From: Donghicola mangrovi
GTDB lineage: Bacteria > Pseudomonadota > Alphaproteobacteria > Rhodobacterales > Rhodobacteraceae
Length of the DNA stretch: 41,421 nt
Assembly: GCF_013377535.1 (NCBI RefSeq)
Contig: NZ_JABCJE010000018.1
Coordinates: 1 to 41,421 of the forward strand
Direction: 5' to 3'
Below the pieces are notes generated by a model. It saw only the letters and a program-made list of their open reading frames with translations. It made no database searches and had not been told where the DNA came from. Shown one piece after another: positions 3,616 through 20,380 of this stretch. Positions within the stretch are counted from its first letter, which is position 1, and the number at the start of each line of letters is the position of its first letter. Position numbers and translations under genes: made by a program.

Positions 3616-5097
3616 TCAGTCGAGCCCGCCGAAGCAGAGATTCTTGATTTCCAGATAATCGTCGATCCCGTATTTTGACCCTTCGCGGCCCATGCCCGAT
3701 TGCTTGACTCCGCCAAAGGGGGCGAGTTCGGTCGATATGGCCCCGGTGTTGATCCCCACCATGCCGACTTCGAGCTGTTCTCCGACGCGCCAGCTGCGCG
3801 CGATGTCACGGGTGTAAAAATACCCGGCCAACCCGAATTCGGTGGCATTGGCCCAGTCGATGGCCTGCTGTTCGTCCTCGAAACGGATCAGCGCGGCCAG
3901 CGGCCCAAATGTTTCGTCGGTGGCAACCTGCATATCCTGCGTGACGCCGGTCAGCAGCGTAGGTTCAAAGAATGTGCCTCCAAGGTCGGACCGCTTGCCG
4001 CCCTGATGCAGGTTAGCGCCCTTCGACAGGGCATCGGTGATATGCTCCTCAACCTTTGCCATGGCGCCTGCATTGATCAGCGGGCCCGTGGTCACGCCGG
4101 TTGCAAGACCATCGCCAAGGGTGAGCTGCGTCATCGCGGCGGCCAGTTTTTCGGCGAAGGCATCATAGACCCCGGACTGGACGTAGATCCGGTTGGCACA
4201 GACACAGGTCTGGCCGTTGTTGCGGAACTTGGCGAGCATCGCCCCTTCGACGGCGGCGTCGAGATCGGCATCGTCAAAGACGATGAAGGGCGCGTTGCCG
4301 CCCAGTTCAAGAGAGAGCTTCTTGATCGTCGCAGCCCCTTGTTCCATCAGGATCCTGCCCACACGGGTCGATCCTGTGAAGGTCAGCTTGGCCACCTTGT
4401 CGGAGGCGCAAAGCGCCTTGCCCACGGCAGAGGACTTGCTGGACGGGATCACGTTGAATACGCCCGCAGGCAGGCCCGCGCGCTCCGCCAGCACGGCCAG
4501 CGCCAGTGCCGACAAGGGCGTCAGTTCTGCTGGCCGCAGCAGCATCGTGCAGCCGACAGCCAGGGCCGGGGCCATCTTGCGCGCGATCATGGCATTGGGG
4601 AAATTCCACGGCGTGATCGCCCCCACGACGCCGACCGGTTGCCTGAGGATCACCATGCGCTTGTCGCGGGCCGGGCCGGGGATCATGTCGCCGTAGACAC
4701 GCTTGGCCTCCTCGGCGAACCATTCGACGTAGGCGGCGCCATAAAGGATCTCGCCGCGGGCCTCCGCCCAGGGTTTGCCCATTTCCGCGGTCAGGATGGT
4801 GGCAAGGTCGTCCGCGTTTTCGATCATCAGGTCGTACAGGCGGCGGAGGACCGCGCTGCGGTCCTTGCCCGATCGGGCTGCCCAAGCGCGTTTGGCCGCG
4901 TAGGCGGCATCGATCGCGCTGTCGATGTCGGCACCCATGTCTGTCACATGGGCAAGCAGCGCGCCGGTTGACGGGTTTGTCACGGGAAACGTGACCCCGG
5001 TGTCCAGCCATTGACCATTCACGTAGGCCCGTGTTTCCAGCAGGGCCGGGTCCTTGACAGACAGGGGGCCTTGCGTCTTGGAGATGGTTTCAAGCAT
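3616..5097 (-). CDS. gabD: Succinate-semialdehyde dehydrogenase (NAD(P)+), GabD type
   Basis: A 493-residue aldehyde dehydrogenase that would oxidise succinic semialdehyde to succinate, the end step after the HpaI-type aldolase encoded just upstream. It shows the ALDH features in order: TPWNFPNAM of the cofactor-binding domain, the FTGSTRVG motif, the catalytic base region LELGGNAPF and the catalytic Cys in NNGQTCVCANR, with the C-terminal PFGGVKQSG. The start at 5097 overlaps the aldolase stop by 8 nt and follows GGGAGC, indicating translational coupling; an in-frame upstream extension exists but lacks support. A role on another semialdehyde is possible because ALDH specificity is hard to read. 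Confidence 0.88.
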   Translation of the reverse strand: MLETISKTQGPLSVKDPALLETRAYVNGQWLDTGVTFPVTNPSTGALLAHVTDMGADIDSAIDAAYAAKRAWAARSGKDRSAVLRRLYDLMIENADDLATILTAEMGKPWAEARGEILYGAAYVEWFAEEAKRVYGDMIPGPARDKRMVILRQPVGVVGAITPWNFPNAMIARKMAPALAVGCTMLLRPAELTPLSALALAVLAERAGLPAGVFNVIPSSKSSAVGKALCASDKVAKLTFTGSTRVGRILMEQGAATIKKLSLELGGNAPFIVFDDADLDAAVEGAMLAKFRNNGQTCVCANRIYVQSGVYDAFAEKLAAAMTQLTLGDGLATGVTTGPLINAGAMAKVEEHITDALSKGANLHQGGKRSDLGGTFFEPTLLTGVTQDMQVATDETFGPLAALIRFEDEQQAIDWANATEFGLAGYFYTRDIARSWRVGEQLEVGMVGINTGAISTELAPFGGVKQSGMGREGSKYGIDDYLEIKNLCFGGLD

Positions 5098-5890
5098 AGG
5101 CTGCTCCCGTTTCCACTTCGGTGTTCTTCTTGAAATCGCGGGCCAGCGCGGCAGTGCTGACAGCGAGCAGGCCCACGTCGTTGCCGACGCCAACAAAGGT
5201 TGCCCCCAGCGCGAGGTAGCGCCGGGCCAAGGTCTGGTCCCCGGTCAGGATGCCCGCCGCCTTGCCATGGCTGAGGATGCGGCGGAGGGCGTCCTCGACC
5301 GCGGCTTGCACTTCAGGGGCACCAGGTTTGCCGAGGTAGCCCATGTCGGCTGCAAGGTCTGCGGGGCCGATGAAGATGCCGTCGATCCCTTCGACCGAGG
5401 CGATGTCGTCCAGTGCGGCAAGGCCGGCCATGCTTTCGATCTGCAGCAGCAGACAGGTCTGGTCATTGGCCGTGGCCAGATAATCGGGAATGCGGTTATA
5501 GGCCGAGGCCCGCGCCAGCGCTGCGCCGACGCCGCGTATCCCGTGCGGCGGGTACAGCTTGGCGCGCACCATGGCCTGTGCTTGGTCGCGGGTTTCGATC
5601 ATCGGGACCAGAACAGTCTGCGCGCCGATGTCCAGAACCTGCTTGATCATCCAGGCCTCGCCCACGGGAATGCGGACGATTGCGTGGGCGGGGCTGGCGG
5701 CCAGTGCACGCAGTTGCGACTGGATCAGCGGCAGGTCATTCGGCGCGTGTTCGCCGTCGATAAGCAACCAGTCAAAGCCGGCGCTGCCGCAGATCTCTGC
5801 CGTTGTGTCATTGGCTAGGGCCAGCCAGAGGCCAATCTGGGGACGCTTGTCCAGAAGCGCTTGTTTGAAAGGATTCACGGGTGCGGGCAT
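5090..5890 (-). CDS. hpaI: HpaI/HpcH-type 2-oxo-acid aldolase
   Basis: A 266-residue class II aldolase of the 4-hydroxy-2-oxoheptane-1,7-dioate aldolase family. In the homoprotocatechuate pathway this enzyme splits its substrate into pyruvate and succinic semialdehyde. Family residues are visible: the catalytic His in DGEHAPND, Arg in IVRIPVG, and the metal ligands Glu in LLLQIES and Asp in GPADLAADMG. Length is normal. The start at 5890 follows GAGGACAGCACG. It lies 10 nt after the hydratase gene and overlaps the dehydrogenase gene, so the three act as one terminal module. Related aldolases accept shorter hydroxy-oxo acids. Confidence 0.9.
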   Translation of the reverse strand: MPAPVNPFKQALLDKRPQIGLWLALANDTTAEICGSAGFDWLLIDGEHAPNDLPLIQSQLRALAASPAHAIVRIPVGEAWMIKQVLDIGAQTVLVPMIETRDQAQAMVRAKLYPPHGIRGVGAALARASAYNRIPDYLATANDQTCLLLQIESMAGLAALDDIASVEGIDGIFIGPADLAADMGYLGKPGAPEVQAAVEDALRRILSHGKAAGILTGDQTLARRYLALGATFVGVGNDVGLLAVSTAALARDFKKNTEVETGAAYA

Positions 5891-5900
5891 CGTGCTGTCC

Positions 5901-6704
5901 TCATTCGAAATACAGGGACACGGTGCCGAAGGGCCCGTAATCGGCGGTGATCGTCGTGCCATGCGGGCATTCGACGGGGCGGATGAAAGACCCGGCCAGA
6001 ACCGTCTGGCCTGCCTCGATCCGGTCGCCATATTGCGCCAGCCGGTTGGCAAGCCAGGCGATGCCGCGCACGGGATCGTTCAGGACACCGGCCCCCAGAC
6101 CGGTTTCCTCGACCACGCCATTGCGCGACACGATCGCGCCCATCCAGCGCATGTCGACCTCGGACGGGCGCATGGCACGTCCGCCGGTGACGATGCCTGC
6201 GTTGGCGGCATTGTCGGATATCGTATCAAGGACATTGCGGGTCTTTTTGGTCGCTGGATCGACCCGCAGGATGCGGGTGTCGAGGATTTCCAGCGCCGGC
6301 GTGATGTAGTCGGTGCAATCCAGCACGTCAAAGACGGTCACATCCGGACCGGCAAGGTCGTGTTTCATGACAAAGGCGATTTCAGCTTCGATCCGGGGCT
6401 GGATGAAACGGTCGGCCGGGATGGTTGCGCCGTCTTCGAACACCATGTCGTCCAGCAGCACACCGCTGTCGGGGATGTCGATGTTCAGCGCGCTTTGCAT
6501 CGCCCGCGACGTCAGGCCGATCTTCCAGCCGATCTGGCGGCGCCCCTGCGCCAGCTTTTCCTTCATCCAGGCGGACTGGATGGCATAGGCATCATCCATG
6601 GTCATGTCGGGATTGGACAGTGACAAAAGAGCCGTCTGGACGCGGGTCCGTTCGGCATGATCCAGCGCGGCGGCGGCGGCGGTAATTGTATCGGAAGACA
6701 GCAT
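5901..6704 (-). CDS. hpaH: HpaH-type 2-oxo-hepta-3-ene-1,7-dioate hydratase
   Basis: A 267-residue member of the HpaH/MhpD hydratase branch of the fumarylacetoacetase superfamily, adding water to the 2-oxo-enoic acid before aldol cleavage. Supporting features are GWKIGLTSRAMQ, the metal-binding segment RIEAEIAFVMKHDL, and the C-terminal segment AGSFIRPVECPHG. Length equals the usual 267 for HpaH. The start at 6704 is chosen because the upstream FAH-family gene stops one base before it. It sits immediately before the aldolase gene, the normal biochemical order. A 2-oxopent-4-enoate hydratase role cannot be excluded. Confidence 0.9.
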   Translation of the reverse strand: MLSSDTITAAAAALDHAERTRVQTALLSLSNPDMTMDDAYAIQSAWMKEKLAQGRRQIGWKIGLTSRAMQSALNIDIPDSGVLLDDMVFEDGATIPADRFIQPRIEAEIAFVMKHDLAGPDVTVFDVLDCTDYITPALEILDTRILRVDPATKKTRNVLDTISDNAANAGIVTGGRAMRPSEVDMRWMGAIVSRNGVVEETGLGAGVLNDPVRGIAWLANRLAQYGDRIEAGQTVLAGSFIRPVECPHGTTITADYGPFGTVSLYFE

Positions 6705-6705
6705 C

Positions 6706-7581
6706 TCAGGCCTCGTCGGCGACGGTGTTGCGCAGGGTGCCAAGCCCATCTGCCTCGACTTCGATCACGTCGCCGGGTCTGAGCCATTTCGGCGGATCGA
6801 ACCGGGCGCCTGCGCCGGTTGGCGTGCCGGTGACGATGATGTCGCCGGGCAACAGCGTGGTGAAGGTCGAGATGTAATTCAGGATCTTCGGGAAGGAGAA
6901 GATCATCCGACCCGTGCGGTCCTGCTGGCGGATCTCTCCATTGACGCGGGTGGTCAGGGTGATGTCGCTGATCTGGGCGGGGTCAGTCAGTGGCACCAGC
7001 CAGGGGCCCATAGACCCGGATTTGTCCCAGTTCTTGCCCTGAGTGACGTTGAATTTTGCATGGCGCACCCAGTCGCGCAGCGTGCCTTCGTTGCATAGGG
7101 TCACAGCGGCGATGTGGTCATAGGCGTCAGCTTCAGGAATGCGGCGGCCTTGCTTGCCGATGACAATGGCGATCTCGCCTTCGTAATCCAGCTGGTCGCT
7201 TTCGGCGGGTCGGATCAGGGGCTGGCCGTGGCCGGTGAAGGATCCGGGAAAACGAATGAACAGCGACGGGTTCGGCGGCGCATCCTTGCCATCCTCGTAT
7301 TCGGCATTGCGGTCGGGAAAGTTGACGCCGACACAGATGATCTTTTGTGGGCGGGCGAGGGGGCTTTCGATCGACACATCTTCAAGGGCATGTGTCACGG
7401 GCAGGTCTGCTGCCTCGGCGGCGGCCAAAAGGGCGCTGAGTTCGCCGCCTTGCAGGACCTCGTCCAGTTCGCGCCAACGGGCGGGGTCGAGCCCGGAAAG
7501 GTCGGTGATGCCCGCGTCACGCACGAGGCCGAAAGAGGTTTTATCCTGCGTGCTGAAACGCACCAGTTTCGTGGTCTGCAT
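6706..7581 (-). CDS. Fumarylacetoacetate hydrolase-family enzyme (HpaG-like)
   Basis: A 291-residue FAH-fold protein, likely an isomerase, decarboxylase or hydrolase acting on the ring-opened product. It has the short N-terminal subdomain and then the catalytic domain with IICVGVNFPDRNAEY, the metal-ligand segment LDYEGEIAIVIGKQG, CNEGTLRDW and the C-terminal GDIIVTGTPTGAG. In homoprotocatechuate degradation an FAH-family protein (HpaG) decarboxylates and isomerises the diacid; its place right before HpaH supports that role. Because no separate HpaE or HpaF is present, its exact substrate is open. A second FAH protein is encoded at 17555-18439. Confidence 0.85.
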   Translation of the reverse strand: MQTTKLVRFSTQDKTSFGLVRDAGITDLSGLDPARWRELDEVLQGGELSALLAAAEAADLPVTHALEDVSIESPLARPQKIICVGVNFPDRNAEYEDGKDAPPNPSLFIRFPGSFTGHGQPLIRPAESDQLDYEGEIAIVIGKQGRRIPEADAYDHIAAVTLCNEGTLRDWVRHAKFNVTQGKNWDKSGSMGPWLVPLTDPAQISDITLTTRVNGEIRQQDRTGRMIFSFPKILNYISTFTTLLPGDIIVTGTPTGAGARFDPPKWLRPGDVIEVEADGLGTLRNTVADEA

Positions 7582-7702: not shown

Positions 7703-8731
7703 TCATTGATCGGCCATCAGCACGGACACATTGTCCGCGATCCGGAATTGCATGAGGTCCTCGGCCACGATCATCGGACCGTCGTAGGTCTCCCGCACCC
7801 GCGTCACGATATCGGACATGCGCACCCGGTCGAATTTGGGGTTTTCGAGCCGGACAACATGCGACAGCACGCCGATTTTCGGGGCGGCCTCGGAGAAGAC
7901 GCGCCCGACGTCCTGAGGGGAGCTGTGATGGTTCAGGATGCGACGTACGAACGGCAGGTCCAGCATCTGGTCCGGGGCCGTTCCGACCGAATGCACCAGC
8001 AGGTCAGTTCCTCGGCCAGCCTCAATGACAGCCGGATCAAATTTCGTGTCACTGGAAAATGTTACGGACTTGCCTGCATAATCGACGCGATACCCTACAG
8101 AAGGATCGATCAGCTCACCATGGTTGACCGGGAACATGGTCACCTTCACCCCGTCCGCGTCAAAGACGACGCCTGGGGCGGCTTCATGGACGTCAAAGTG
8201 CGTGGCGGCTTCGTCAACGCCCTCATCGGCCATGCGCGTGGTGATATCGCCCTGATGTGCGGTCCGGATGCCCTCGGCAAGCGCAGCAACCCCCGGCGGG
8301 CCATAAAGGCCCAGTGGGCCTTTGCGGCCGCCGATCGGACCTGTCAGGTAGCCCGACATCAGAATGTCGTCCAGACCGTTCACGTGATCAGAATGGAAAT
8401 GCGTGATGAAGACGGCGTCCACCGCGCCGATGGCAAGGTCCATCTGCTGGAGGCGCGTGACGACATTACGCCCGGCATCGAACAGCAGTGTCGTTCCTCC
8501 GGCCTGCACGAGATTGGCAAAACCGGCGCGGCGTAGGTCGGCCGAGGGCGTGCCCGTGCCCAGCAGTGTGACCACCAGTTCGGGGGATGTCGCGGCCGTG
8601 TCCTGTGCTTGGGAAACCGTCGCGGCGACAGGCAATGCGGCGCAGATGGCCACCAGGACCGACACGCGCAAGGATTGCCGCAGACGGCCAAGGATTTGGG
8701 GGGATCGCCCCTGTGTTTGACGTTTATACAT
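7703..8731 (-). CDS. Exported metallo-beta-lactamase-fold hydrolase
   Basis: A 342-residue protein with a cleavable-looking N-terminal signal (SLRVSVLVAICAALPVAATV then SQAQ), so probably periplasmic. The mature part is a metallo-beta-lactamase fold near the RNase Z/arylsulfatase-like branch: GTGTPSADLRRAG, FDAGRNVVTRL, the zinc motif THFHSDHVNGL, a later metal Asp in FSSDTKFDP and His in LNHHSSPQ and LSHVV. The start is supported by GGAGG upstream. It lies inside an operon of cytoplasmic ring-degradation enzymes, which is odd; it could open a lactone or ester outside the cytoplasm. Substrate not predictable. Confidence 0.82.
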   Translation of the reverse strand: MYKRQTQGRSPQILGRLRQSLRVSVLVAICAALPVAATVSQAQDTAATSPELVVTLLGTGTPSADLRRAGFANLVQAGGTTLLFDAGRNVVTRLQQMDLAIGAVDAVFITHFHSDHVNGLDDILMSGYLTGPIGGRKGPLGLYGPPGVAALAEGIRTAHQGDITTRMADEGVDEAATHFDVHEAAPGVVFDADGVKVTMFPVNHGELIDPSVGYRVDYAGKSVTFSSDTKFDPAVIEAGRGTDLLVHSVGTAPDQMLDLPFVRRILNHHSSPQDVGRVFSEAAPKIGVLSHVVRLENPKFDRVRMSDIVTRVRETYDGPMIVAEDLMQFRIADNVSVLMADQ

Positions 8732-8928: not shown

Positions 8929-9999
8929 TTACTTCGGGTCGAGACCAAAGAACTTCTCGGCGTTCTTATGGAACACCTTGGCCTTGACCTCGTCCGACAC
9001 GTCGAGACCTTCGATCGTCGGCACACCGTCAAAGAACCAGTCCTTTCGGATCGGGTAGGAGGCGCCGTAGAGGATGTTGTCCTCGCCCAGCACTTCGAGT
9101 GCGCATTCCAGCTGTTTCTTGCCCCACTGCGGCGGGCCGGAAATGTCGAAGAACAGGTTGTTGGTCAACTTTTCACGCAGGTTGGAATTGCCGGTGTCGA
9201 ACCGGTCGACCGCATCGCCGTAGGAATGGCGCGGTTTCGGAACCAGCATGTCGGCAAAGGCAAAGAACCCGCCACCCAGCATGGAATGGGACAGTTTCAG
9301 GTTCGGGAAGCGGTCGAAGAGACCCGAGAACAGTTCGCGGCCCACGGCGGTGCCCTGCGCGATGCAGCGGCCGTACTGGCGGCGCTGGTTGTTGAAATCC
9401 AGGATCGACCCGTGATCCACCGGCAGCGGCGTGTGGTGGACAACAACCGGCAGCTTGCGGTCGTTGATGAACTCGAAATACGGGTAGAAGGCCTCGTCAT
9501 CAAGGTAGATGTCGCCGTACTTGCAGGCCATCTGCACGCCTTTGAAGCCCAGTTGATCCACGCAGCGTTCGACTTCCTTGATCATGGCATCGGTGCCCCA
9601 GGGCGGGCAGACCGCCAGCGCGGTAAAGCGGCCACCGGATTTGGCCACATATTCGGCCAGGCCGTCGTTGATCTTCTTCGAGCATTCCAGATCCAGCCAT
9701 TCCTGCCAGACGGGAATGCGGAATACGGCGTGGTCGATCCCGGCCTTGTCCATGTCGGCCAGCTGGCTGTCGATATTGTACTGGCCTTCGGCGTAGTTGA
9801 TGTTCACCACGCCCTTGGGTTCCTCGATGATGATCTGGCGGATGTCCTTGTCCTTCACGGGTTCCATGCGGACGTGGACGTTGTGCTGGCGCGGGATGCA
9901 CAGCATCATCTTTTCACGCAGGTCGTCGTCGGTGAACAGCGTGTCGGGCAGCCAGTGCATGTTGGCATCGATCACGCGGTGTTTGGTCATCTCGGTCAT
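8929..9999 (-). CDS. ACMSD-like amidohydrolase (Amidohydro_2), altered metal site
   Basis: A 356-residue TIM-barrel protein related to non-oxidative decarboxylases such as aminocarboxymuconate-semialdehyde decarboxylase, gamma-resorcylate decarboxylase and 5-carboxyvanillate decarboxylase. Family landmarks are VIDANMHW near the N-terminus, ADMDKAGIDHAVF, VVVHHTPLP (His188/189), LKLSHSMLGGG (His238) and ILYGASYP near the C-terminus. Two usual metal or catalytic positions are changed: the N-terminal DxHxH reads D-A-N-M-H, and the GSDYP-type motif reads GASYP, with Ser314 where Asp is normal. It may therefore use a different metal arrangement or reaction. It follows the monooxygenase gene by 29 nt in operon A. 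Confidence 0.8.
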   Translation of the reverse strand: MTEMTKHRVIDANMHWLPDTLFTDDDLREKMMLCIPRQHNVHVRMEPVKDKDIRQIIIEEPKGVVNINYAEGQYNIDSQLADMDKAGIDHAVFRIPVWQEWLDLECSKKINDGLAEYVAKSGGRFTALAVCPPWGTDAMIKEVERCVDQLGFKGVQMACKYGDIYLDDEAFYPYFEFINDRKLPVVVHHTPLPVDHGSILDFNNQRRQYGRCIAQGTAVGRELFSGLFDRFPNLKLSHSMLGGGFFAFADMLVPKPRHSYGDAVDRFDTGNSNLREKLTNNLFFDISGPPQWGKKQLECALEVLGEDNILYGASYPIRKDWFFDGVPTIEGLDVSDEVKAKVFHKNAEKFFGLDPK

Positions 10000-10028: not shown

Positions 10029-11324
10029 TTATCGGATGTCTTCTGCGGCAGCGACGCGGCGCGAGGTGGCTTCGGTGAACACCTCCTTGGCGCGCTGGCC
10101 GTCACGCACGTCATCGGGGCGCTTCATGCCCGCCTTGACGTGGTATTCCATGAACAGATCCTCGACCTCCTGGCGGGAGATCACGTCGTCGATGTTGTCG
10201 AAGGGCTTGCCGCCGGAGGCCTCTTCGACGAGGCGGCGGATCACTTCGGGGCCTTCGCCCCGGTTGGCGATGACGAGGCGGTTCACGAAGTCGCGGCGTT
10301 CGGCTTCATAGGCCTGGAAAGCCTCGACCGGGTCGTCCATCGTGGCGAGCTTTTCGGCCACGACACGCGCATCAACCAGCGCCTGGCAGACGCCGTTGCC
10401 GCCGCGCGGGTACATCGCGTGCGCCGCGTCGCCCAGCAGCGTCACCCGGTCAAAGGACCAGCGATCCAACGGGTCGCTGTCGATCAGCGGGTAGACGTAG
10501 ATTTCACGCGCATTGCGGATCATCTCGTTCACGTCGAGAAAATCCAGTTTCACGTCGGTGAACACGTCCTGGATATCCTCGGGGCCGACCTGCACGGACC
10601 AGTCTTCAGCGCCTTTGGGTTTGCCGGACTGTTCGCAGACCCAGTTGATCAACTGGTTGCCGTTGCCGTCTTCGTTGTTGGCGATCGGGTAGACGATCAG
10701 CGATCCCTGCCGGATCGGGTCGCCGATGTGCAGGATGGTTCCGCCATTGGCATAGGGCGGCATGACGGTCACGCCGCGGTACATGGCAATGCCGGAATAA
10801 TGGGTGCGCGAGGCGTCCGGGTGCAGCTGGCGTTTGACACGCGAATGGATGCCATCGACGCCGATCATCACGTCATGGCGTACGGTGCTGCCATCGGCGA
10901 AGGTGATGGTGACGCCGTCTGCATCCTGCTCGAACCGTTCGAACTTGCGGCCAAGTTGAACCGCGTCCGCGCCAAGGCGGGCCTTGACCGCGTCCAGCAG
11001 CATGAACTGGAAGGTCCCGCGATGCACGAAACGCTGCTCGTGCTCATAGCCGATATGCTTGCCGCAGCGTTCGGTAAAGATCTGCTGGCCATGGCCGGTA
11101 AAGAAGGTGCTGTCCTTCGCCTCGACGGAAATGGCGCGGAATTCCTCCAGCAAGCCCATCTCGGTGACTTCTTTGACGCCGTAGACCTTGATGTCGATGC
11201 CGACACCCAGCGGTTTCAGTTCCGGCGCCGCTTCGTAGATCGTGGGTCTGAAGCCTTTTTGTTCCAGGCGAAGCGCAGTGGCCAATCCGCCCGGTCCTGC
11301 GCCGATAATCGCAATATCCAACAT
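10029..11324 (-). CDS. FAD-dependent aromatic-ring monooxygenase
   Basis: A 431-residue class A flavoprotein monooxygenase in the salicylate/6-hydroxynicotinate hydroxylase group. It shows the Rossmann motif IIGAGPGGLATALRLEQKG at the N-terminus, the DG motif MIGVDGIHSRVKRQL, and the GD motif VTLLGDAAHAMYPRGGNG. ATG at 11324 is preferred because AGGAGG lies 6 nt upstream. It would hydroxylate (possibly with decarboxylation) the pathway substrate using NAD(P)H and oxygen to give the catechol-type compound opened by the dioxygenase encoded 44 nt upstream. Substrate is not deducible from sequence. Confidence 0.88.
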   Translation of the reverse strand: MLDIAIIGAGPGGLATALRLEQKGFRPTIYEAAPELKPLGVGIDIKVYGVKEVTEMGLLEEFRAISVEAKDSTFFTGHGQQIFTERCGKHIGYEHEQRFVHRGTFQFMLLDAVKARLGADAVQLGRKFERFEQDADGVTITFADGSTVRHDVMIGVDGIHSRVKRQLHPDASRTHYSGIAMYRGVTVMPPYANGGTILHIGDPIRQGSLIVYPIANNEDGNGNQLINWVCEQSGKPKGAEDWSVQVGPEDIQDVFTDVKLDFLDVNEMIRNAREIYVYPLIDSDPLDRWSFDRVTLLGDAAHAMYPRGGNGVCQALVDARVVAEKLATMDDPVEAFQAYEAERRDFVNRLVIANRGEGPEVIRRLVEEASGGKPFDNIDDVISRQEVEDLFMEYHVKAGMKRPDDVRDGQRAKEVFTEATSRRVAAAEDIR

Positions 11325-11368
11325 GGTTTTCCTCCTCATGGGGGCTTCGGTCCCCCTTCTGCTGCCGG

Positions 11369-12388: not shown

Positions 12389-12463
12389 CTCGATCCCTCC
12401 CTGAACTCTTGTCCCGAGATTGGCCAAGGGGCGGGATTCCGACAACAAAACCATGGCGAATTG

Positions 12464-13873: not shown

Positions 13874-14490
13874 CACCCAGCCTCCTTGACAGCGCCTTGC
13901 GGACGCATGTTTGGCGTTTCGTCTTCGGGATAGTCGCCCGTATCGCGCAGGATCTTGCGGATGCCTTCCTGGTGACCGGGCTCATCTTCGCTGTCGTCGG
14001 GAATGGCATGGGGCCTCAGCGTGGCATCGGAATGCATCAGCCAGACATTGTGCGAGGCAAACCAGATGGCGATCAGGCAAAACAGCGAAGCCATGTAGAC
14101 CAGCGGAGCCATCGGCAGTTCGAAGTACACCGACAAGGTGCCGAACCGTTCCAGCCGGTTGGCCTGGTCAAAGATCATGTAGGTAAAGGCGCACAGGGCC
14201 AGCACCTCCAGCGTTCCGGTAAACAAGGCTTCGATCCGGGACAGGCGGGCCTTGTACAGGTCGGCAAACAGGCCGACGCGGATATGTGAATTGTCCCGCA
14301 CGACAAGCGGCAGGGCGGAGAAGAAGAAGGTCAGCAAGGCAAAGATGACGTATTCCGAGCCGCCGTAGAGCGGCATGTCGAACTTGCGCCCGATGCTGTC
14401 CACGAAGGCCACCAGGGCCATGGCGCTGATGGACAGGCCGGCGACGGCAAGACAGAACCGCCCCAGCCAGAGGTCGATGGTTTTGATCAT
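13873..14490 (-). CDS. dctQ: TRAP transporter small permease (DctQ)
   Basis: A 205-residue protein with four predicted membrane helices: an N-terminal one near LAVAGLSISAMALVAFV, the next around YVIFALLTFFFSALPLVV, then LEVLALCAFTYMIF, and APLVYMASLFCLIAIWF. This is the usual TRAP small-subunit layout, including the post-helix RDNSHIRVGLF motif. The C-terminal 40 residues are acidic and probably cytoplasmic. It lies between dctP (63 nt upstream) and dctM (1-nt stop/start overlap). GGAG lies upstream of the start. Confidence 0.92.
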   Translation of the reverse strand: MIKTIDLWLGRFCLAVAGLSISAMALVAFVDSIGRKFDMPLYGGSEYVIFALLTFFFSALPLVVRDNSHIRVGLFADLYKARLSRIEALFTGTLEVLALCAFTYMIFDQANRLERFGTLSVYFELPMAPLVYMASLFCLIAIWFASHNVWLMHSDATLRPHAIPDDSEDEPGHQEGIRKILRDTGDYPEDETPNMRPQGAVKEAG

Positions 14491-14553: not shown

Positions 14554-15576
14554 TCAGTTGGCCGCGAGGGCGTGATCCAGGCGGGCGCGGTAGAAGTCAT
14601 AGACCTCATCCGGGTTTTCCAGGCCCTTGGCGGCAGCCTTTTCCTTCCACAGATCGATCTGGGCGTTCAGTACATCCTCAAAGGACGCCAGCGCCGCACC
14701 CGAGACTTCGGTCGTGGGAATCTGGGCGACGATCTCGGACAGTTCGGCCTCGGCCGCATCGGCGGCGGCCCCGGTCCGGCCCGGCAGGCCGTCGGCTGCG
14801 CGCAGGATCGCGCCCTGCTGATCTGCGGTCAGGCCCTCCCAGCTTTCCTGCGAGATGAACACTGCGAAAGACAGCGACCCCAGACCGCCGGGGATCTTGG
14901 TGTAGCTCTTGACGTTCTCCAGGATACGCGCGCCGTCGGCGGAGCCCGGTGTCAGGATGACGCCGTCGACCGTGCCCTTGGTCACGTATTCCTGCAGGTC
15001 CGTGAATTCGGAGTTGACCGGAACCGCCCCCAGCGCTTCGGCGGTCTTGGTCAGCGTACCCGGAGGCGACCAGAGCTTGAAGCCCGACAGAGAGGGCACA
15101 TCGGTGATTTCCCTGTCGCTGGTCGACAGCATCTGGCGTCCTGGCAGGACATGGGTCGACAGCACTTTCACGCCTTTGAACTCGTTCATCGGCTCAAAGT
15201 ACTTTTCGTAGGTTTCCCACAGGGCCACGGCGCCGGCTTCGGCCGTGGGGGCACTGAAGGGCAGGTCGGCGATGCGGTTCAGCGTCACCAGCTGGGGGAC
15301 TGCGCCAGAGGACACGATGGCCATGTCCGCGATCCCGTCCCGCACCATTTCATACTGGCGATCGGAGGGGGCAAGGCTGCTGTCCGGGATCTGGATGTGG
15401 ATGTCGCCCTGGCTCTCTGCTTCGATCCGGGCGGCGAAATCCTTGACCGCGACCTGATACATTTCGTCGTATGGTGGCAAAAAGCTGTTATAAATCAGCG
15501 TGGTTTCTGCATTCGCCAGCAGGGGTGCCCCCACGGACAGCAAAGCGGCTGCGCCAAGCGCATTGAGATGTTTCAT
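14554..15576 (-). CDS. dctP: TRAP transporter substrate-binding protein (DctP family)
   Basis: A 340-residue periplasmic protein with a clear signal peptide (MKHLNALGAAALLSVGAPLL, cleavage near ANA-ET). The mature part has the DctP pattern: the N-terminal strand TTLIYNSFLPPYDEMYQ, the RDGIADMAIVSSG region, and LPGRQML with an Arg at the position that normally binds the ligand carboxylate. Start at 15576 follows GGGAGGA; the longer upstream frame has no support. It is the first gene of the dctPQM operon and would capture the pathway's carboxylate substrate. Specificity cannot be read. Confidence 0.92.
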   Translation of the reverse strand: MKHLNALGAAALLSVGAPLLANAETTLIYNSFLPPYDEMYQVAVKDFAARIEAESQGDIHIQIPDSSLAPSDRQYEMVRDGIADMAIVSSGAVPQLVTLNRIADLPFSAPTAEAGAVALWETYEKYFEPMNEFKGVKVLSTHVLPGRQMLSTSDREITDVPSLSGFKLWSPPGTLTKTAEALGAVPVNSEFTDLQEYVTKGTVDGVILTPGSADGARILENVKSYTKIPGGLGSLSFAVFISQESWEGLTADQQGAILRAADGLPGRTGAAADAAEAELSEIVAQIPTTEVSGAALASFEDVLNAQIDLWKEKAAAKGLENPDEVYDFYRARLDHALAAN

Positions 15577-15952
15577 GGTTTTCCTCCCTTGGGTCCGGCT
15601 TTTCTCCCCACGCGCCGGCGTCGTGTGTCCCTGACTGTGCTTGGACTCTCCCCAGCCCATCAACACGAGAACATGCGAGTTTTCACATTACGGACACGGT
15701 TGGGCAATGATCATTGGAAACGCATCGGGTACCATAAATTTCAGCTATTGAGATTGACGCTGTCAGAGCGGCTTCGGGGGATCCCGAAGATTTCCACTAT
15801 CTGGAAATCGCGGTCATTGGCGCGGCCTGCACGGGGTCAAATGGCATGGGAAACTGCTAGGATCCCCAGGCCCGGAACATGTCCCTGGGAGGGGGACCGG
15901 GCGTTCAGATGCACTCCGAAATCGGAGACGAACTTACCTAAAGGGAGGAACC
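15577..15952. promoter_or_regulatory. Divergent control region between dctP and barrel-protein genes
   Basis: This 376-bp spacer serves both dctPQM (leftward) and the outer-membrane gene (rightward). It holds three dyads: a weak copy of the IclR-type motif (TTCACATTACGGA, 15682-15694), a perfect 12-bp palindrome CAATGATCATTG (15705-15716) and a long inverted repeat at 15789-15809. The rightward gene has AAAGGGAGGA as ribosome binding site at about 15940. Regulator assignment is inference. Confidence 0.55.
15789..15809. promoter_or_regulatory. Inverted repeat, candidate operator
   Basis: GATTTCC and GGAAATC form perfect 7-bp arms separated by 7 nt, about 144 bp before the barrel-protein start. 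The spacing places the half-sites roughly one and a half helical turns apart, usual for a dimeric regulator. IclR or GntR encoded in the same cargo are candidates; no binding evidence. Confidence 0.45.
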
Positions 15953-17041
15953 ATGGACCTTGGATCCATGTTGAAAGCGGCTGCGCTCACGGGCGTGGTC
16001 ACACTCGGTGCGTCCCCTGTGCTGGCACAGGAGGGGGGAATGCCCTTCATGGCAAAGATGGCGCGCAGCTTTGGCCCGACCGGGCTGATCGCAGAATTCG
16101 GCCAGAACGAAAGCTACGGATCGTTCCAGACGCGGCAGGCCTGGGCGCGGTCGGAAATTGCGGCCGCGGCTGCCGATAACGTCTGGACGGGATATGCAGA
16201 CAGTGCACGCAAGCTGAACATGCCCGTCACCCTCAGCTTTTCGTTGCCCGGCAACACGATGGGGGTCCGTTTCAAGGGAACCTATTCGAACACGCAGGCC
16301 GATGAGAACATGACCTACGCGAATTCGAGCGGTCCTTCCGGGCTGGTCGAACTCATGGCAATGCCGTCGTCGGACCTGATGCTGGGGTTCGGCGTGATGA
16401 CAGGCAAGACCGACGTGGATATCCAGCACAATGACGGCAGCATCACGGCATCGAACTGGGGGGTGCAGTTCGACCTGCTGAAGACCCTCAGCGAACACTG
16501 GGGGCTCGCCGGCCGCGCGATCTATCGCCACAATGAAAGCGATACCGTCATTCCGCTGGGCTTTGCCGATCTGGAAACAGAGCAGGGGTCGGATGTGTTC
16601 TACACGGAATGGACCATGGTCGGCAATTACGAGCAGGACTCGCTGTCTTGGGTGCCTGAAGGCTGGCTGTTCCGGCCGCGTGTCCGTGCGGTTTACGCCA
16701 AGACCCGGTTTGAAAGCGTCACCAACAGCCTTGGCCGGACGAACGAGGGGACCGTCGGCGAAAGCGATGAATACGCAACAGTGCAGGCCAAGGTCCGCCT
16801 TTTGCAGCCGGTCTTCCGCCCTGGCCAGACGGGATTCTACGTCGAAGGGGGCTATGAGCGTGAAGTCATCAATGACCTGGATCTGGTGGTCGATGATCCG
16901 AACATCCTGCATGCCAAGGCCGGTGTCTCGAGCATGATGAAAAACGGCCTGTTCATTGATGCCGGGCTGGGGATCGAGCATGGCACCAAAGGCAAGAAGG
17001 ACCTCAAGGTACTGACCGTGGCCTTGTCCAAGACGTTCTGA
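15953..17041 (+). CDS. Outer-membrane beta-barrel protein, probable substrate porin
   Basis: A 362-residue protein with a signal peptide (hydrophobic core AAALTGVVTLGASPVLA, cleavage AQ-EG). The mature sequence is made of alternating amphipathic strands separated by turns with Asp/Asn, and ends in LSKTF with a terminal Phe, the outer-membrane sorting signal of barrel proteins. It is not a match I can name to a family. The start follows AAAGGGAGGA. It is divergent from the TRAP operon and ends in a strong terminator, so it probably supplies outer-membrane passage for the same substrate. Confidence 0.75.
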   Translation: MDLGSMLKAAALTGVVTLGASPVLAQEGGMPFMAKMARSFGPTGLIAEFGQNESYGSFQTRQAWARSEIAAAAADNVWTGYADSARKLNMPVTLSFSLPGNTMGVRFKGTYSNTQADENMTYANSSGPSGLVELMAMPSSDLMLGFGVMTGKTDVDIQHNDGSITASNWGVQFDLLKTLSEHWGLAGRAIYRHNESDTVIPLGFADLETEQGSDVFYTEWTMVGNYEQDSLSWVPEGWLFRPRVRAVYAKTRFESVTNSLGRTNEGTVGESDEYATVQAKVRLLQPVFRPGQTGFYVEGGYEREVINDLDLVVDDPNILHAKAGVSSMMKNGLFIDAGLGIEHGTKGKKDLKVLTVALSKTF

Positions 17042-17054
17042 TCTTTCTTGGACC

Positions 17055-17095
17055 AGAAAAAACCCGCTCCGAGCCATCGGGGCGGGTGTTTTTTT
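17055..17095. terminator. Bidirectional intrinsic terminator
   Basis: The stem ACCCGC (17062-17067) with GCGGGT (17082-17087) is flanked by AAAAAA on the left and a run of T on the right, so it can end the barrel-protein gene on the plus strand and operon B (ending at 17122) on the minus strand. Confidence 0.85.
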
Positions 17096-17121
17096 GTCCT
17101 CTGGTCAGAACCGGATGCTGA

Positions 17122-17535
17122 TCAGGCCTCGGGCCTGAGGATGGCTATGAAGTCGCACTGGATCAGCATGCCGCTGCCCAGTTCAGAGGTTTGCAGGGCG
17201 TGGCGCGTCGGGCGGCTCTGCGGGTCGGGAAACAACGCTTCCCAGTAGGGATTGATCAGGGCACGTGTCTCATGCGAGCGGTCATGCATCCAGAGGGTCA
17301 TCTTGATGATGTCATCCGGGGTGCCGCCCGCCGCGATGATCGTATCGTGGACATGACGAAACATCAGTTCGCACTGACGGGGAAACCCGTCCGCCGTCCG
17401 GCCCAGATCCGGGTCATAGCCATGAATCCCGCCGGAATAGACCATCTGGCCGATGCGGCTGGCCACGGGCACCGGGTTCTTGTGGCGCATTCCGTCGATG
17501 TAGATGCTTTGCCGGATGTCGTCTGACTTGCGCAT
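17122..17535 (-). CDS. RidA (YjgF/UK114) family protein
   Basis: A 137-residue protein with the RidA-family fold signature: GQMVYSGGIHGYDPDLGRT, then CELMFRHVHDTIIAAGGTPDDIIKMTLW, and a C-terminal LIQCDFIAI. Canonical RidA has an Arg (often in a CVxAR motif) near the position that here reads LGSGMLIQCDFIA, so imine deaminase activity is uncertain. Some RidA-fold proteins are 2-aminomuconate deaminases in aminophenol pathways, which would fit a ring-cleavage cluster with an ACMSD-like enzyme. It is the last gene of operon B, 19 nt after the FAH gene. Start at 17535 has only a weak AAAGGTGA ribosome site. Confidence 0.8.
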   Translation of the reverse strand: MRKSDDIRQSIYIDGMRHKNPVPVASRIGQMVYSGGIHGYDPDLGRTADGFPRQCELMFRHVHDTIIAAGGTPDDIIKMTLWMHDRSHETRALINPYWEALFPDPQSRPTRHALQTSELGSGMLIQCDFIAILRPEA

Positions 17536-17554
17536 CGGGATCACCTTTGCACAC

Positions 17555-18439
17555 TCAGGCAGGGACAGTCGCGTCACAAGACGAGGGCGCCTCCGCACCG
17601 GCATCGGCAATCACGCGGTTCTCGATCTGGCCCAGCCCGGTGATTTCCATCCGCATCACGTCACCGGATTTGAGGAACTTGCCCTGTGCAGCCCCGATCC
17701 CCGACGGCGTGCCGGTCGCAATGATGTCGCCTGGCATCAGGGTCATCACGCGGGTCAGGTGCACGATCTGATCATAGATGTCATAGATCATGTCCCCGGT
17801 CATCGACCGCTGGCGTTCTTCGCCGTTGACCGTGCCGACCATTTCCAGCGCCAACGGATCGGCCACCTCGTCTGCCGTGGTCAGCCAGGGGCCGGTCGGG
17901 CCGGAGGTATCAAAGGATTTGCCGATGGTGAAGGAGGGTTTCTGCCAGTCCCGAACGGACACGTCATTGACGATCATGTAGCCGGCAATGACCGAGGGAG
18001 CCTCTTCGCGGGTCACGTTCCGGCAGGCGCGGCCGATGACCATGCCCAGCTCGATTTCGTAGTCCATCTGGTTGCTGAACGAGGGTTTGACCACGTCGCC
18101 GGTCGGGCCGTTGACACAGGACACCTGCTTGGTGAACCAGAACTGGCTGTCCGGAACGGGAATGCCCGCCTGGCGTGCCTCTTCGGCGTGTTTGCGGTAA
18201 TTCATGCCGATGGCCAGGAATTTCTGCGGATCGTTGACCGGCGCTTGCAGCACGACCTCGGCCAGTGCGTAGGACGGCGCTGTCGCCGCTTCGAGCGCGG
18301 GGCGCAGCGTTTCCAGGTCGCGGATCAGGGCGCGCATCGACGTGCCCACGCCCGGCAAACCGGACAGATCGACGACACGATCCCCTTCAACTTTGCCGAT
18401 GCGTGTGTTTCCACCTTGTGTAAACCGAGCCAGTTTCAT
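17555..18439 (-). CDS. Fumarylacetoacetate hydrolase-family protein, second copy
   Basis: A 294-residue FAH-fold enzyme with the N-terminal cap (MKLARFTQGG) and catalytic domain: FLAIGMNYRKHAEE, FTKQVSCVNGPTGDVV, the metal-ligand segment MDYEIELGMVIGR, MIVNDVSVRDWQ, and the C-terminal GDIIATGTPSGIG. All usual acidic ligands are present. It is a probable 2-hydroxyhepta-2,4-diene-1,7-dioate isomerase, acylpyruvate hydrolase or related hydrolase. The start follows GGGAGGAAAA. It differs clearly from the operon A paralogue, so the two probably act on different ring-fission intermediates or on consecutive steps. Confidence 0.85.
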   Translation of the reverse strand: MKLARFTQGGNTRIGKVEGDRVVDLSGLPGVGTSMRALIRDLETLRPALEAATAPSYALAEVVLQAPVNDPQKFLAIGMNYRKHAEEARQAGIPVPDSQFWFTKQVSCVNGPTGDVVKPSFSNQMDYEIELGMVIGRACRNVTREEAPSVIAGYMIVNDVSVRDWQKPSFTIGKSFDTSGPTGPWLTTADEVADPLALEMVGTVNGEERQRSMTGDMIYDIYDQIVHLTRVMTLMPGDIIATGTPSGIGAAQGKFLKSGDVMRMEITGLGQIENRVIADAGAEAPSSCDATVPA

Positions 18440-18483
18440 GATTTTCCTCCCGATTGTTCTTTGGATTCAGTAATGTGTGCAGG

Positions 18484-18876
18484 TCAAGCGTGGCTGCGTT
18501 CCGGGGTGAGCTGCGATAGCAGCACCCGCCACACGCCCTGTTCCTGCCGAAAGATCGTGGTCTGGAACCCTTTGAGCGCCAGCGGTTCGCCGGTTTCGCG
18601 CGATCGCACCGTGTTGACCGTGGGACCCGTGACGATGGCCAGCTCACCGATGAGAGCCACGTCGACGGCATCACGCACGATCGAGATGAACCCGCCCATC
18701 TTGCCCACGTGATCGATCAGGGCCTGTTTCGTGTCGACGCGCGCTGTCGAATGCACGTGGACCAGGTTTTCCGACAGGATGGCGTCCAACGCCGCCGGGT
18801 CTGCGGAGACCAGAGCGGCCTTGCGGGTTTCTTCGGCCCTGCGGATCGCGGCAAGCCCGTCAGATGAGACCGTCAT
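18484..18876 (-). CDS. SnoaL/NTF2-like small protein
   Basis: A 130-residue protein with the cone-shaped NTF2-like fold pattern: an N-terminal helix (IRRAEETRKAALVSADPAAL), LSENLVHVHSTARVDTKQAL, then antiparallel strands ending in FRQEQGVWRVLLSQLTP. This matches DUF4440/SnoaL-like proteins, which include isomerases, dehydratases and many of unknown role. GGAGG six nt before ATG at 18876 fixes the start, inside the 3' end of the SDR gene (17-nt overlap), so the two are translationally coupled. Its role on a pathway intermediate is unknown. Confidence 0.75.
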   Translation of the reverse strand: MTVSSDGLAAIRRAEETRKAALVSADPAALDAILSENLVHVHSTARVDTKQALIDHVGKMGGFISIVRDAVDVALIGELAIVTGPTVNTVRSRETGEPLALKGFQTTIFRQEQGVWRVLLSQLTPERSHA

Positions 18877-19642
18877 AGGAGCCTCCATCCAGCTGGATGT
18901 TCTGCCCCGACAGAAAGCCGGACTGCGCGGCACAGAGGAACGCACAGGCGTCGCCGAATTCCTCGGGGCGGCCCAGTCGCTTGGCGGCGATGGTTTCGGC
19001 GGTGCGTTTGCGCGCCGCGTCATAATCGATGCCCTCGGCTTTCATCCGGCGCTGGATCATGAACTCCTGACGCGGCGTGTCGATGCGCTCGGGCAGCAGG
19101 TTGTTGATCGTCACGTTGTCGGCCACCACCTCGCGGCTGATGGCCTTGCACATGGCCGTCAGCGCCGCACGGGCCGAGGTCGACAGGCCCATCATGTAGT
19201 GCGGAGATTTCACCATCGCCGAAGTGATGTTGACGATCCTCCCGAACCTGCGCGCGCGCATCCCGGGAACATAGGCCCGGATCAGCAGCGCGGCGGGGAT
19301 GAAGTTTGCCCCCATGGCTGACAGCAGCGCGGCTTCGTCCCAGTCTTCCAAGGCTCCCGGAGGCGGGCCCGCATTGTTCGTCACCAGGACATCCGTTTCG
19401 GGAAATGCCTTGAGGATGGCGGCGCGGCCAGCTTCGGTGGTCAGGTCGGCGGCCACATAGTCCACGCCGGCGTCCGGCAGTTCGGAGCGCAGTCTTGCAG
19501 CCACGGTCTCGAGTTTCCCGGCGTCGCGGCCATTCAGGACCACGCTGGCCCCTTCACGCGCAAGGGCCGTGGCACAGGCAAGCCCCAGTCCCTGTGACGA
19601 CCCGCAGACAAGGGCCGTTTTCCCCGTCAATCCCAGATCCAT
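18860..19642 (-). CDS. SDR-family protein with altered catalytic Tyr/Lys
   Basis: A 260-residue short-chain dehydrogenase/reductase-fold protein. The cofactor motif (CGSSQGLGLACATAL), NNAGPPPG and the C-terminal LSGQNIQLDGGSYDG are typical. At the active site, the usual YxxxK (YSASKAAL) reads STSARAALTAM, so the catalytic Tyr appears as Ser and the Lys as Arg, while the Ser in NITSAM is kept. Such variants form a known minor SDR branch of unclear activity. It is the second gene of operon B, 12 nt after the hydrolase gene, with GGGAGAGAG upstream. It may be a non-classical dehydrogenase or a binding protein. Confidence 0.82.
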   Translation of the reverse strand: MDLGLTGKTALVCGSSQGLGLACATALAREGASVVLNGRDAGKLETVAARLRSELPDAGVDYVAADLTTEAGRAAILKAFPETDVLVTNNAGPPPGALEDWDEAALLSAMGANFIPAALLIRAYVPGMRARRFGRIVNITSAMVKSPHYMMGLSTSARAALTAMCKAISREVVADNVTINNLLPERIDTPRQEFMIQRRMKAEGIDYDAARKRTAETIAAKRLGRPEEFGDACAFLCAAQSGFLSGQNIQLDGGSYDGLI

Positions 19643-19654
19643 CTGCTCTCTCCC

Positions 19655-20380
19655 TCAGTCTTTCAAAGATTCGTTGAACACGGCCAGCATGGCGGCGCGG
19701 GACCTGCGGTCGGCGCGGGCGTCATAGGCGGCGAAAGGCGGGCGGCCGGGGCCATCGGGTTCGGTGAAGGCGTGTTTCACGTCACCATAAACATGGGTGT
19801 CCCAGCGGATGCCTGCCGCAGACAGGCCCGCCTGCACCCGGGCGAGATCGCCGGGTTTGGCCATCGGGTCGGCGCTGCCGGTGGCAATGAAGACATCCGG
19901 AGAGGCGGTCGCGCCCGACCAGTCATCCGCCACCATGTCGAGCCCGCCATGCAGGCTGACGACGGCATTCAGGGGCGCGCCCATCCGCAGGAATTCCAGG
20001 GCCGAGGCTCCGCCAAAACAATAGCCGACCATGCCCATCCTGCCCGCAACCACCCCGTCCTGCGCGCTCAGCGCCGTGCAGGCCGCCTGCATCCGTGCCT
20101 GCCAGATCGCGCGGTTGGACAGCATCTGTCCCAGCATCGGTCCGATCTCGTCAGGGTGTCCCGGCTGCTTGCGCCCGCCCCAGAGATCTGCGGCCAGCAC
20201 GGCGAACCCGGCCTCGGCCAGCTGGTTGGCGCAGCCCATGATGAAATCGTTCAGCCCATGCGCGCCATGCAGCATGACGATGCCGGGCAGGGGGGCGGGG
20301 CTGTCGGGGCGGCAGAAATAGCCGATCATCCCGGCCTCGCCATCGGAATAGGGAATGTCTCTGGAGACGAGCGTGCTCAT
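19655..20380 (-). CDS. Dienelactone hydrolase-family protein
   Basis: A 241-residue alpha/beta hydrolase of the dienelactone hydrolase family. The Cys-Asp-His triad is visible: Cys in MVGYCFGGASAL, Asp in ATGSADPMAKP and His in GDVKHAFTEP. The start at 20380 is preferred over a longer frame because that frame runs through the presumed operator region; an AAGGA lies about 10 nt upstream. It is the first gene of operon B, behind a candidate IclR operator. It could open a lactone or hydrolyse a carboxylic ester formed in ring degradation. The substrate is not known. Confidence 0.85.
   Translation of the reverse strand: MSTLVSRDIPYSDGEAGMIGYFCRPDSPAPLPGIVMLHGAHGLNDFIMGCANQLAEAGFAVLAADLWGGRKQPGHPDEIGPMLGQMLSNRAIWQARMQAACTALSAQDGVVAGRMGMVGYCFGGASALEFLRMGAPLNAVVSLHGGLDMVADDWSGATASPDVFIATGSADPMAKPGDLARVQAGLSAAGIRWDTHVYGDVKHAFTEPDGPGRPPFAAYDARADRRSRAAMLAVFNESLKD

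Follow-up and report, generated by a model that had tools for sequence, protein, structure and literature searches.

The stretch of DNA analysed here (the window) comprises 41,421 nt from Donghicola mangrovi (GTDB lineage Pseudomonadota; Alphaproteobacteria; Rhodobacterales; Rhodobacteraceae) and corresponds to positions 1 to 41,421 of the forward strand of contig NZ_JABCJE010000018.1, assembly GCF_013377535.1. It carries a putative aromatic catabolic gene cluster which extends to approximately 24.7 kb of the window. Read along the minus strand from 22.1 to 3.6 kb, the cluster encodes a GntR and an IclR regulator, a dienelactone hydrolase (DLH) family protein, an SDR oxidoreductase, a SnoaL protein, a FAH-family protein (FAH2), a RidA protein, a TRAP transporter, an HpaD-type extradiol dioxygenase and a flavin monooxygenase, followed by an amidohydrolase, a metallo-beta-lactamase-fold (MBL) protein, a further FAH-family protein (FAH1), HpaH, HpaI and succinate-semialdehyde dehydrogenase (SSADH). 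A DUF3500 gene (22284-23528, plus strand) is divergent from the remainder of the cluster. All genes listed in a first-pass annotation of this DNA were recovered on the minus strand where it had placed them or close by; the DUF3500 gene, both regulators and the TRAP transporter have to be added to its list.

Concerning the lower part of the pathway, the left end of the cluster encodes SSADH (3616-5097, minus strand as all genes below unless stated otherwise; TIGR01780, 695.5 bits, cut-off 646.35), the 4-hydroxy-2-oxoheptanedioate aldolase HpaI (5090-5890; TIGR02311, 387.5 bits, cut-off 368.8) and the 2-oxo-hept-4-ene-1,7-dioate hydratase HpaH (5901-6704; TIGR02312, 440.8 bits, cut-off 351.5; PDB 2eb4, E 3.7e-94). 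All three exceed their curated cut-offs, which bears out their earlier assignment to known lower steps. FAH1 (6706-7581; FAA_hydrolase) is a candidate HpaG-type decarboxylase, its best model being the HpaG C-terminal subunit (169 bits, cut-off 276). Compared with two canonical hpa clusters of Alphaproteobacteria (L080 and L081), the four proteins show 58-79% identity, FAH1 66-69%. The window shares HpaH, HpaI, SSADH and an FAH decarboxylase candidate with the homoprotocatechuate (hpa/hpc) pathway, in the gene order of L081; L080 has the same order but lacks SSADH. It differs from that pathway in having no HpaE, a RidA for HpaF and a dioxygenase of another clade, and in its additional monooxygenase, amidohydrolase, DUF3500, FAH2, SnoaL, SDR and DLH genes.

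A search for the same gene set in other genomes, one of the checks suggested with the first-pass annotation, revealed 41 distinct loci; the carriers of the set belong to Rhodobacterales and other Alphaproteobacteria, to Enterobacterales (Raoultella, Pantoea, Cedecea, Mixta, Enterobacter, Chimaeribacter) and to Actinobacteria. Thirty-nine of them came from an amidohydrolase search of a species-level genome collection, to which a Thioclava plasmid and a locus from a genome of the same family (L068) were added; the wider fetches L069, L070, L071 and L079 duplicate L013, L015, L016 and L014, respectively. Presence and absence were scored at fixed match thresholds in loci reaching to 10 kb flanks or to the end of a contig; some genes scored as absent may therefore lie beyond view. 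A full-length flavin monooxygenase accompanies the amidohydrolase in 33 of the 41 loci. The other eight include one cut locus (L042), one with a frame split at that gene (L046) and six with only the amidohydrolase at threshold (L029, L030, L031, L033, L034, L050). DUF3500 is encoded in 30 of the 33 monooxygenase loci (L014 counted through L079) and FAH2 in 29 (L015 counted through L070); where either is missed (L018, L026, L027, L032, L051), its expected place is at or beyond the end of the locus or contig. As these genes are found in each other's company in distant phyla, their co-occurrence goes beyond chance. The set nevertheless occurs sporadically. Of 195 relatives, D. mangrovi itself and one other gave the amidohydrolase. 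For the monooxygenase, 390 genomes sampled evenly from the order yielded one carrier, again D. mangrovi; scoring there was limited to some first-look candidates, four per listed genome, so that carriers may be missed. An amidohydrolase relative (40%) on an Enterococcus raffinosus plasmid (L052) precedes two ceramidase-like proteins and a beta-glucoside phosphotransferase system.

HpaE, the dehydrogenase of 5-carboxymethyl-2-hydroxymuconate semialdehyde (CHMS), had not been seen in the window by the first-pass annotation, and this holds for the genome: TIGR02299 matches 23 aldehyde dehydrogenases (ALDHs), none above the cut-off. The SSADH protein of the cluster scores 407 bits with the HpaE model (cut-off 638) and 365 bits with that of 2-hydroxymuconic semialdehyde dehydrogenase (cut-off 693); no aminomuconate-specific model was seen among the models listed. 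The best ALDH, on contig C13, was discarded as an HpaE candidate at 516.8 bits, below the cut-off, and because it lies near an HpaD-like protein (26%) and a hydratase (34-38%), it is probably a member of a different meta cluster. In a survey of 23 genomes or records, HpaE exceeded the cut-off in seven, five enterics and two actinobacteria, and in none of the nine alphaproteobacterial entries, one of which is a plasmid record only. Of the 19 proteobacterial carriers tested, 14 have no HpaE above the cut-off; the other five carry it elsewhere, beside HpaF. In the five HpaE-bearing enterics, HpaF is found on the same contig at most about 3 kb from HpaE, and three of these HpaE/HpaF stretches (L065-L067) encode homologues of FAH, ALDH, HpaF, HpaH and HpaI in a row.

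The enteric carriers divide by the presence of HpaH in the cluster. Five of the nine readable ones have it (L020, L021, L023, L028, L049) and possess neither HpaE above the cut-off nor HpaF; the four without it (L022, L024, L025, L027) possess both (n = 9, Fisher P 0.008; this value and the two given below, 0.012 and 0.0007, ignore relatedness among the genomes compared). L026 was excluded from this count, since its locus stops five bases past the amidohydrolase frame, and L027 was retained, its next gene being the PadR-like one that follows HpaI in relatives. When HpaH was searched genome-wide in six of these enterics (L020-L025), the three with a local copy had no second match, and the three without had one elsewhere at 53-55%. 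From this pattern it would follow that the upper part of the pathway feeds into the hpa pathway through an intermediate no lower than the HpaG/HpaH step. Judged by gene content, the shared route does not include HpaE, and the semialdehyde dehydrogenase is predicted to be dispensable.

The HpaD-type dioxygenase (11369-12454; PDB 1f1x, E 2.9e-61) scores 312.2 bits with TIGR02295, just below the cut-off of 321.4, and is only 43-44% identical to the HpaDs of the two canonical alphaproteobacterial clusters. In a tree it is separated from six HpaDs of hpaE loci (split 100/99, by a method which warns of long branches). The metal ligands and several second-shell residues of homoprotocatechuate 2,3-dioxygenase (HPCD) are retained in the alignment, the roles of these residues being those which we take them to have in HPCD. 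In HPCD numbering derived from the alignment, and with locus L010 excluded as not such a cluster, Gln is present at Asn157 in all 24 readable cluster enzymes and Ala at Arg293 in all 25; the six canonical HpaDs keep Asn157 and have Arg or Gln at 293. Position 157, not 293, is the one that in this alignment discriminates the cluster dioxygenases from the six canonical enzymes.

These data bear on the plainest alternative, an ordinary homoprotocatechuate pathway in which the dioxygenase would act on homoprotocatechuate, SSADH or another ALDH would serve for HpaE and the other genes would be peripheral. The HpaD score, only 9 bits under the cut-off, the retained HPCD residues with their presumed roles and the 23 ALDH-type matches in the genome agree with it. 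Even so, we consider it unlikely, as the five enteric clusters with a local HpaH have no ALDH at the SSADH threshold (L021 shows a 37% ALDH match at the locus edge) in genomes without HpaE above the cut-off. Moreover, the dioxygenase forms a clade apart from the HpaDs of hpaE loci, and the cluster dioxygenase is retained even by the five enterics which have HpaE and HpaF at another site.

HpaF, the isomerase of 5-carboxymethyl-2-hydroxymuconate (CHM), was rightly reported as not seen here, PF02962 giving 0 matches in the whole genome and being positive in 11 of the 23 genomes or records; yet it belongs to eight sister clusters (L009, L013, L014, L016, L019, L032, L068 and, via L070, L015). The window encodes instead a divergent RidA (17122-17535; PF01042, E 1.4e-10), which belongs to the Pfam family but, at 32.7 bits, lies far outside the curated RidA subfamily TIGR00004 (cut-off 106.25). 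This RidA occurs in 22 of the 41 distinct loci, once as a fragment at the locus edge (L041), and in none of the 41 together with HpaF. Eleven loci have neither, namely L026 and L027 (cut), L040, L042, L051 and the six amidohydrolase-only loci. Among 22 genomes searched whole, 12 contain RidA only, 6 HpaF only, 4 both and none neither; in the four with both, HpaF adjoins HpaE, away from the cluster. The RidA match counted for genome G212 is a partial one. Nine alphaproteobacterial genomes comprise six with HpaF, that of G037 taken from a separate locus comparison, and three with RidA (Fisher P 0.012). The simplest reading of this alternation is that RidA would be a non-orthologous replacement of HpaF.

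The amidohydrolase (8929-9999; Amidohydro_2) is a relative of the ACMSD and 5-carboxyvanillate decarboxylase family by fold and sequence (LigW2, E 1.7e-22; best Foldseek match ACMSD 7pwy, E 6e-20), with an altered metal site. Ser314 stands where the 5-carboxyvanillate decarboxylase 4inf has the Asp of the family, a residue near the C-terminal end of the barrel which presumably has a metal or catalytic role in ACMSD-type decarboxylases. Asn13-x-His15, in a stretch outside the PDB alignments, takes the place of the strand-1 His-x-His or Glu-x-His that we take to be the ACMSD-type metal-ligand motif, Asn replacing the first ligand. Both features are invariant in 29 sequences including that of the window; neither the C-terminal Asp nor the strand-1 motif of an ACMSD-type decarboxylase is found. 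Relatives of the enzyme lie in a Clostridiales bin (L050:9998-18018) near a protein matching pyrogallol hydroxytransferase (E 2.8e-261) and in a Dehalococcoidia bin (L030) near a hydroxytransferase-like protein and a beta-propeller lactonase. The hydroxytransferase-like neighbours in both bins are molybdenum enzymes of the pyrogallol hydroxytransferase type. Because of the altered Ser/Asn-x-His site and these neighbours, the context of the amidohydrolase points to polyhydroxybenzene or lactone chemistry and not to amino-muconate decarboxylation. An assignment as phloroglucinol cyclohydrolase was dropped, that enzyme falling in the 'cyclase' family.

The first-pass annotation had considered a substituted or amino-bearing aromatic acid possible, its ACMSD-like, ALDH and RidA set recalling the meta-cleavage of aminophenol or 3-hydroxyanthranilate. 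In such a route, ring cleavage would be followed by an ACMSD-type decarboxylase, an aminomuconic semialdehyde dehydrogenase and a RidA-type deaminase. The fold of the amidohydrolase is indeed nearest to ACMSD, and a RidA and an ALDH gene are present. However, the invariant Ser314 and Asn13-x-His15 of the amidohydrolase family, the identity of the ALDH as SSADH by its curated cut-off and the suitability of HpaH and HpaI for C7 diacids weaken this idea to the point of being very improbable. The alternation of RidA with HpaF between clusters likewise stands against it, and because of this alternation an isomerase role of RidA would be preferred over 2-aminomuconate deamination.

A second module consists of the monooxygenase, DUF3500, FAH2 and SnoaL genes, often with DLH and SDR. 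The group A flavin monooxygenase (10029-11339) has its nearest solved structures in 3c96/2rgj (E 4e-71), which we take to be PhzS, a decarboxylating hydroxylase. FAH2 (17555-18439) is acylpyruvate-hydrolase-like (PDB 8gsr, 2,4-diketo-3-deoxyrhamnonate hydrolase, E 6e-50) and is followed, in order of coordinates, by the genes for a SnoaL/NTF2-fold protein (DUF4440; 18484-18876; PF14534, E 7.7e-16), the SDR oxidoreductase (18860-19642; PF13561, E 3.8e-32) and the DLH family protein (19655-20380; PF01738, E 5.6e-34). The gene starts of RidA, SnoaL, SDR and DLH were picked from translations. DUF3500 (PF12006, E 2.8e-106) is a core gene. Its structural model (pLDDT 85) has one solved relative at E < 0.001, 9x86, titled dehydratase ApmL (Foldseek E 1.5e-18; profile E 7.1e-34).

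In Actinobacteria, the presence of a second DUF3500 protein correlates with the absence of the dioxygenase. This additional protein (PF12006, E 1e-58 to 1e-65) is encoded in L038, L039, L043 and L044, the four loci of actinobacteria without an HpaD-type enzyme, and in none of the other 11 actinobacterial loci, looked for inside the loci only (Fisher P 0.0007). Three of the four are two Actinoplanes and one Mangrovihabitans, genera which we take to be of the same family. The pattern is correlative and fits DUF3500 as a possible ring-opening family able to replace the dioxygenase. The fungal tetrahydroxybenzene cluster, as Martins reportedly described it in 2024, is composed of a flavin monooxygenase, an FAH-like protein and DUF3500. 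On this composition, the window and the fungal 1,2,3,5-tetrahydroxybenzene pathway have these three encoded together, and the second module resembles the fungal pathway; the set of the window differs in being bacterial and in its DLH and hpa-type lower pathway. A review cites fungal work assigning DUF3500 to ring opening (PMC12388069), and a 2026 description has the 1,2,3,5-tetrahydroxybenzene pathway restricted to fungi. Outside the sister loci, DUF3500 and an FAH gene lie alongside homologues of a hydroxyquinol-type dioxygenase and a maleylacetate reductase in L072, L074 and L075, as on the right side of the window; two further DUF3500 loci, L073 and L076, show no such pair. That right side (26015-38247) encodes an intradiol (hydroxyquinol-type) dioxygenase, a branched-chain-type ABC transporter, two large flavin monooxygenases and an iron-containing dehydrogenase, a maleylacetate reductase candidate.

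Removal of a ring hydroxyl by a reductase and a dehydratase is known from melanin chemistry, and phloroglucinol reduction offers a further parallel. By analogy, SDR together with SnoaL or DUF3500 might reduce and dehydrate a phloroglucinol-type ring with loss of one hydroxyl, after which the monooxygenase and the HpaD-type enzyme would produce CHM from this single ring. The match of the DUF3500 fold to a protein titled dehydratase, the adjacency of the SDR and SnoaL genes and the amidohydrolase relative near pyrogallol hydroxytransferase in L050 are in line with such a route, as is the fact that phloroglucinol reductase is an SDR (PMC10470551). We regard it as distinctly unlikely, given that SDR reaches the threshold in only 1 of 15 actinobacterial loci, that the fungal work cited in the review assigns ring opening to DUF3500 (PMC12388069) and that the four actinobacteria with a second DUF3500 have no HpaD. 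SDR and amidohydrolase may act in the manner of LigC/LigI, with oxidation to a pyrone, but this was set aside since SDR is missing at threshold in 14 of the 15 actinobacterial loci.

Other known systems were compared by description. In the flavonoid catabolism (fde/ifc) of Herbaspirillum and Variovorax, a flavin monooxygenase hydroxylates the A-ring at C8 and a glyoxalase-family enzyme follows (PMC11069340). The monooxygenase and glyoxalase-family logic is alike; the lower pathway is not common to both, and no cupin IfcD-type gene was among the window genes scanned. The isoflavone ifc and naringenin fde clusters were not retained as relatives, as only this logic is shared. A Bradyrhizobium locus (L010) with an SDR and a 47% dioxygenase gave no close onward link among the matches listed. 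Riboflavin (lumichrome) catabolism by LumE-LumW-LumY-LumX proceeds through an extradiol dioxygenase to a pyrone and then through hydrolase, hydratase and aldolase (PMC12746152). Its pyrone formation, hydrolysis, hydration and retro-aldol cleavage parallel the route proposed below and serve as a precedent only. Substrate, upper pathway and genes, as described there, are different, with LumY annotated as a cupin, and it was rejected as the identity of the cluster. The first-pass annotation had raised the possibility of an undescribed pathway, and this is supported: in the literature searched we found no characterised cluster of the same make-up and no orthologous one with a defined substrate, and the genome encodes no HpaE above the cut-off and no HpaF outside the locus.

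Gene identities, conservation, the absence of HpaE and the alternation of RidA and HpaF are grounded in the sequences, and we read the cluster as a two-module catabolic island with a polyphenol-type aromatic acid, its ring apparently of the plant-phenol type, as candidate substrate, at a probability of about 0.42. The first module would be a homoprotocatechuate-type meta-cleavage route without CHMS dehydrogenase. Here the HpaD-type enzyme would cleave a ring so that the broken bond ends on a carbon already oxygenated, for example in a 2,3,4-trihydroxyphenylacetate unit. Oxygen on the carbon next to the cleaved diol should lead to a carboxylate, an ester or a pyrone in place of an aldehyde; CHM or its pyrone or ester would thus be formed, and HpaE would not be needed. 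CHM would then be isomerised by RidA in place of HpaF, decarboxylated by FAH1, hydrated by HpaH and cleaved by HpaI to pyruvate and succinic semialdehyde, which SSADH would convert to succinate. The second module would act on another polyhydroxylated ring, or part of a ring, by hydroxylation and opening in the manner of the fungal 1,2,3,5-tetrahydroxybenzene route, and the amidohydrolase may hydrolyse a lactone or pyrone or a C-C bond. As two kinds of enzyme with links to ring opening are jointly conserved, the substrate may contain two rings or a succession of two ring systems. The substrates, the RidA step, the dioxygenase product and the amidohydrolase and DUF3500 reactions are those which we infer from gene content. 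It is a tentative step further, and one with the odds against it, to see DUF3500 as a ring opener able to replace a classical extradiol dioxygenase, and the RidA-fold protein as CHM isomerase. The pathway would then be the first bacterial equivalent of the central tetrahydroxybenzene pathway of fungi, joined to lower steps of the homoprotocatechuate type that do without the dehydrogenase.

Several observations weigh against the two-module island. The genome holds many ALDHs, and one of them may oxidise CHMS unseen. Gln at Asn157 also occurs in two non-cluster dioxygenases (L010 and L082), and Ala at Arg293 was abandoned as proof of a new substrate, since canonical HpaDs in hpaE loci have Gln there. 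The HpaD-type enzyme is not universal: among the 15 actinobacterial carriers it is present in the locus in six and elsewhere in the genome in five (50-52% identity), and absent from four at E 1e-40. In the 15 actinobacterial loci, FAH1 reaches the threshold in none, SDR is missing in 14 and HpaH was not seen in nine within the stretch examined. One of the six HpaF-only genomes, G211, lacks both the RidA clade and an HpaF in the cluster, its HpaF lying only beside HpaE; the RidA region may be beyond a contig end. Because its sole solved relative is titled dehydratase, dehydration by DUF3500 is a live alternative on the structural model.

Several of the remaining genes of the cluster concern transport and regulation. 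The TRAP transporter comprises the large permease DctM (12575-13876; PF06808, E 8.7e-83), the small permease DctQ (13873-14490; PF04290, E 2.3e-13) and the solute-binding protein DctP (14554-15666; PF03480, E 5.8e-32). A plus-strand open reading frame (ORF) inside the cluster (15953-17041) encodes an outer-membrane beta-barrel (autotransporter-domain) candidate (PF03797, E 2.8e-6, 27.7 bits, cut-off 26), with relatives at 24-55% in L009, L069, L070, L071 and L079; this suggests an outer-membrane channel. The MBL protein (7703-8731) is probably a passenger and was rejected as a pathway step, being found in 0 of the 41 distinct loci at 100 bits, with weak 30-32% matches in L037 and L046. Relatives of both regulators, IclR (20585-21433; PF01614, E 3.1e-20) and GntR/FCD (21436-22146; PF07729, E 2.5e-18), adjoin sister clusters.

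The whole cluster is bracketed by two direct IS6/IS240-type insertion sequence (IS) copies, 98.9% identical over 812 bp, with the terminal inverted repeat GGGATTGCCAACTTGTTT. The left copy (2764-3575, plus strand; transposase ORF 2808-3524, plus strand; DDE_Tnp_IS240, E 8.3e-33) and the right copy (24679-25490, plus strand; transposase ORF 24723-25439, plus strand; DDE_Tnp_IS240, E 2.3e-32) have the arrangement expected of an IS26-like pseudo-compound transposon. No further strong copy was found in the draft genome with a 621-base query, and visual inspection of the outer ends showed no common target duplication. The right copy severs the 5' part of a gene for a ferric/flavin reductase of the SIP type that still carries the end of a PadR-like part (23598-24678, minus strand; SIP, E 3.2e-31), whose relative in L013 is a PadR-SIP fusion in one frame. 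SIP or PadR-part relatives are present at 60 bits in 13 of the 41 distinct loci, a recurrence which hints that iron chelation or iron supply may be relevant. Near the contig end, transposase and integrase-core ORFs (39582-40807; HTH_Tnp_1, rve) are followed by an ImpB/MucB/SamB-family gene (40804-41349).

If the two-module reading is true, soil, plant-associated and enteric bacteria would have in common an aromatic catabolic route that is unmapped so far. DUF3500, a functionally uncharacterised domain for which ring opening has been proposed in fungi, would gain a tractable bacterial setting, and a RidA-fold isomerase would become testable. The cluster would also be an example of a meta-cleavage pathway shedding its semialdehyde dehydrogenase.

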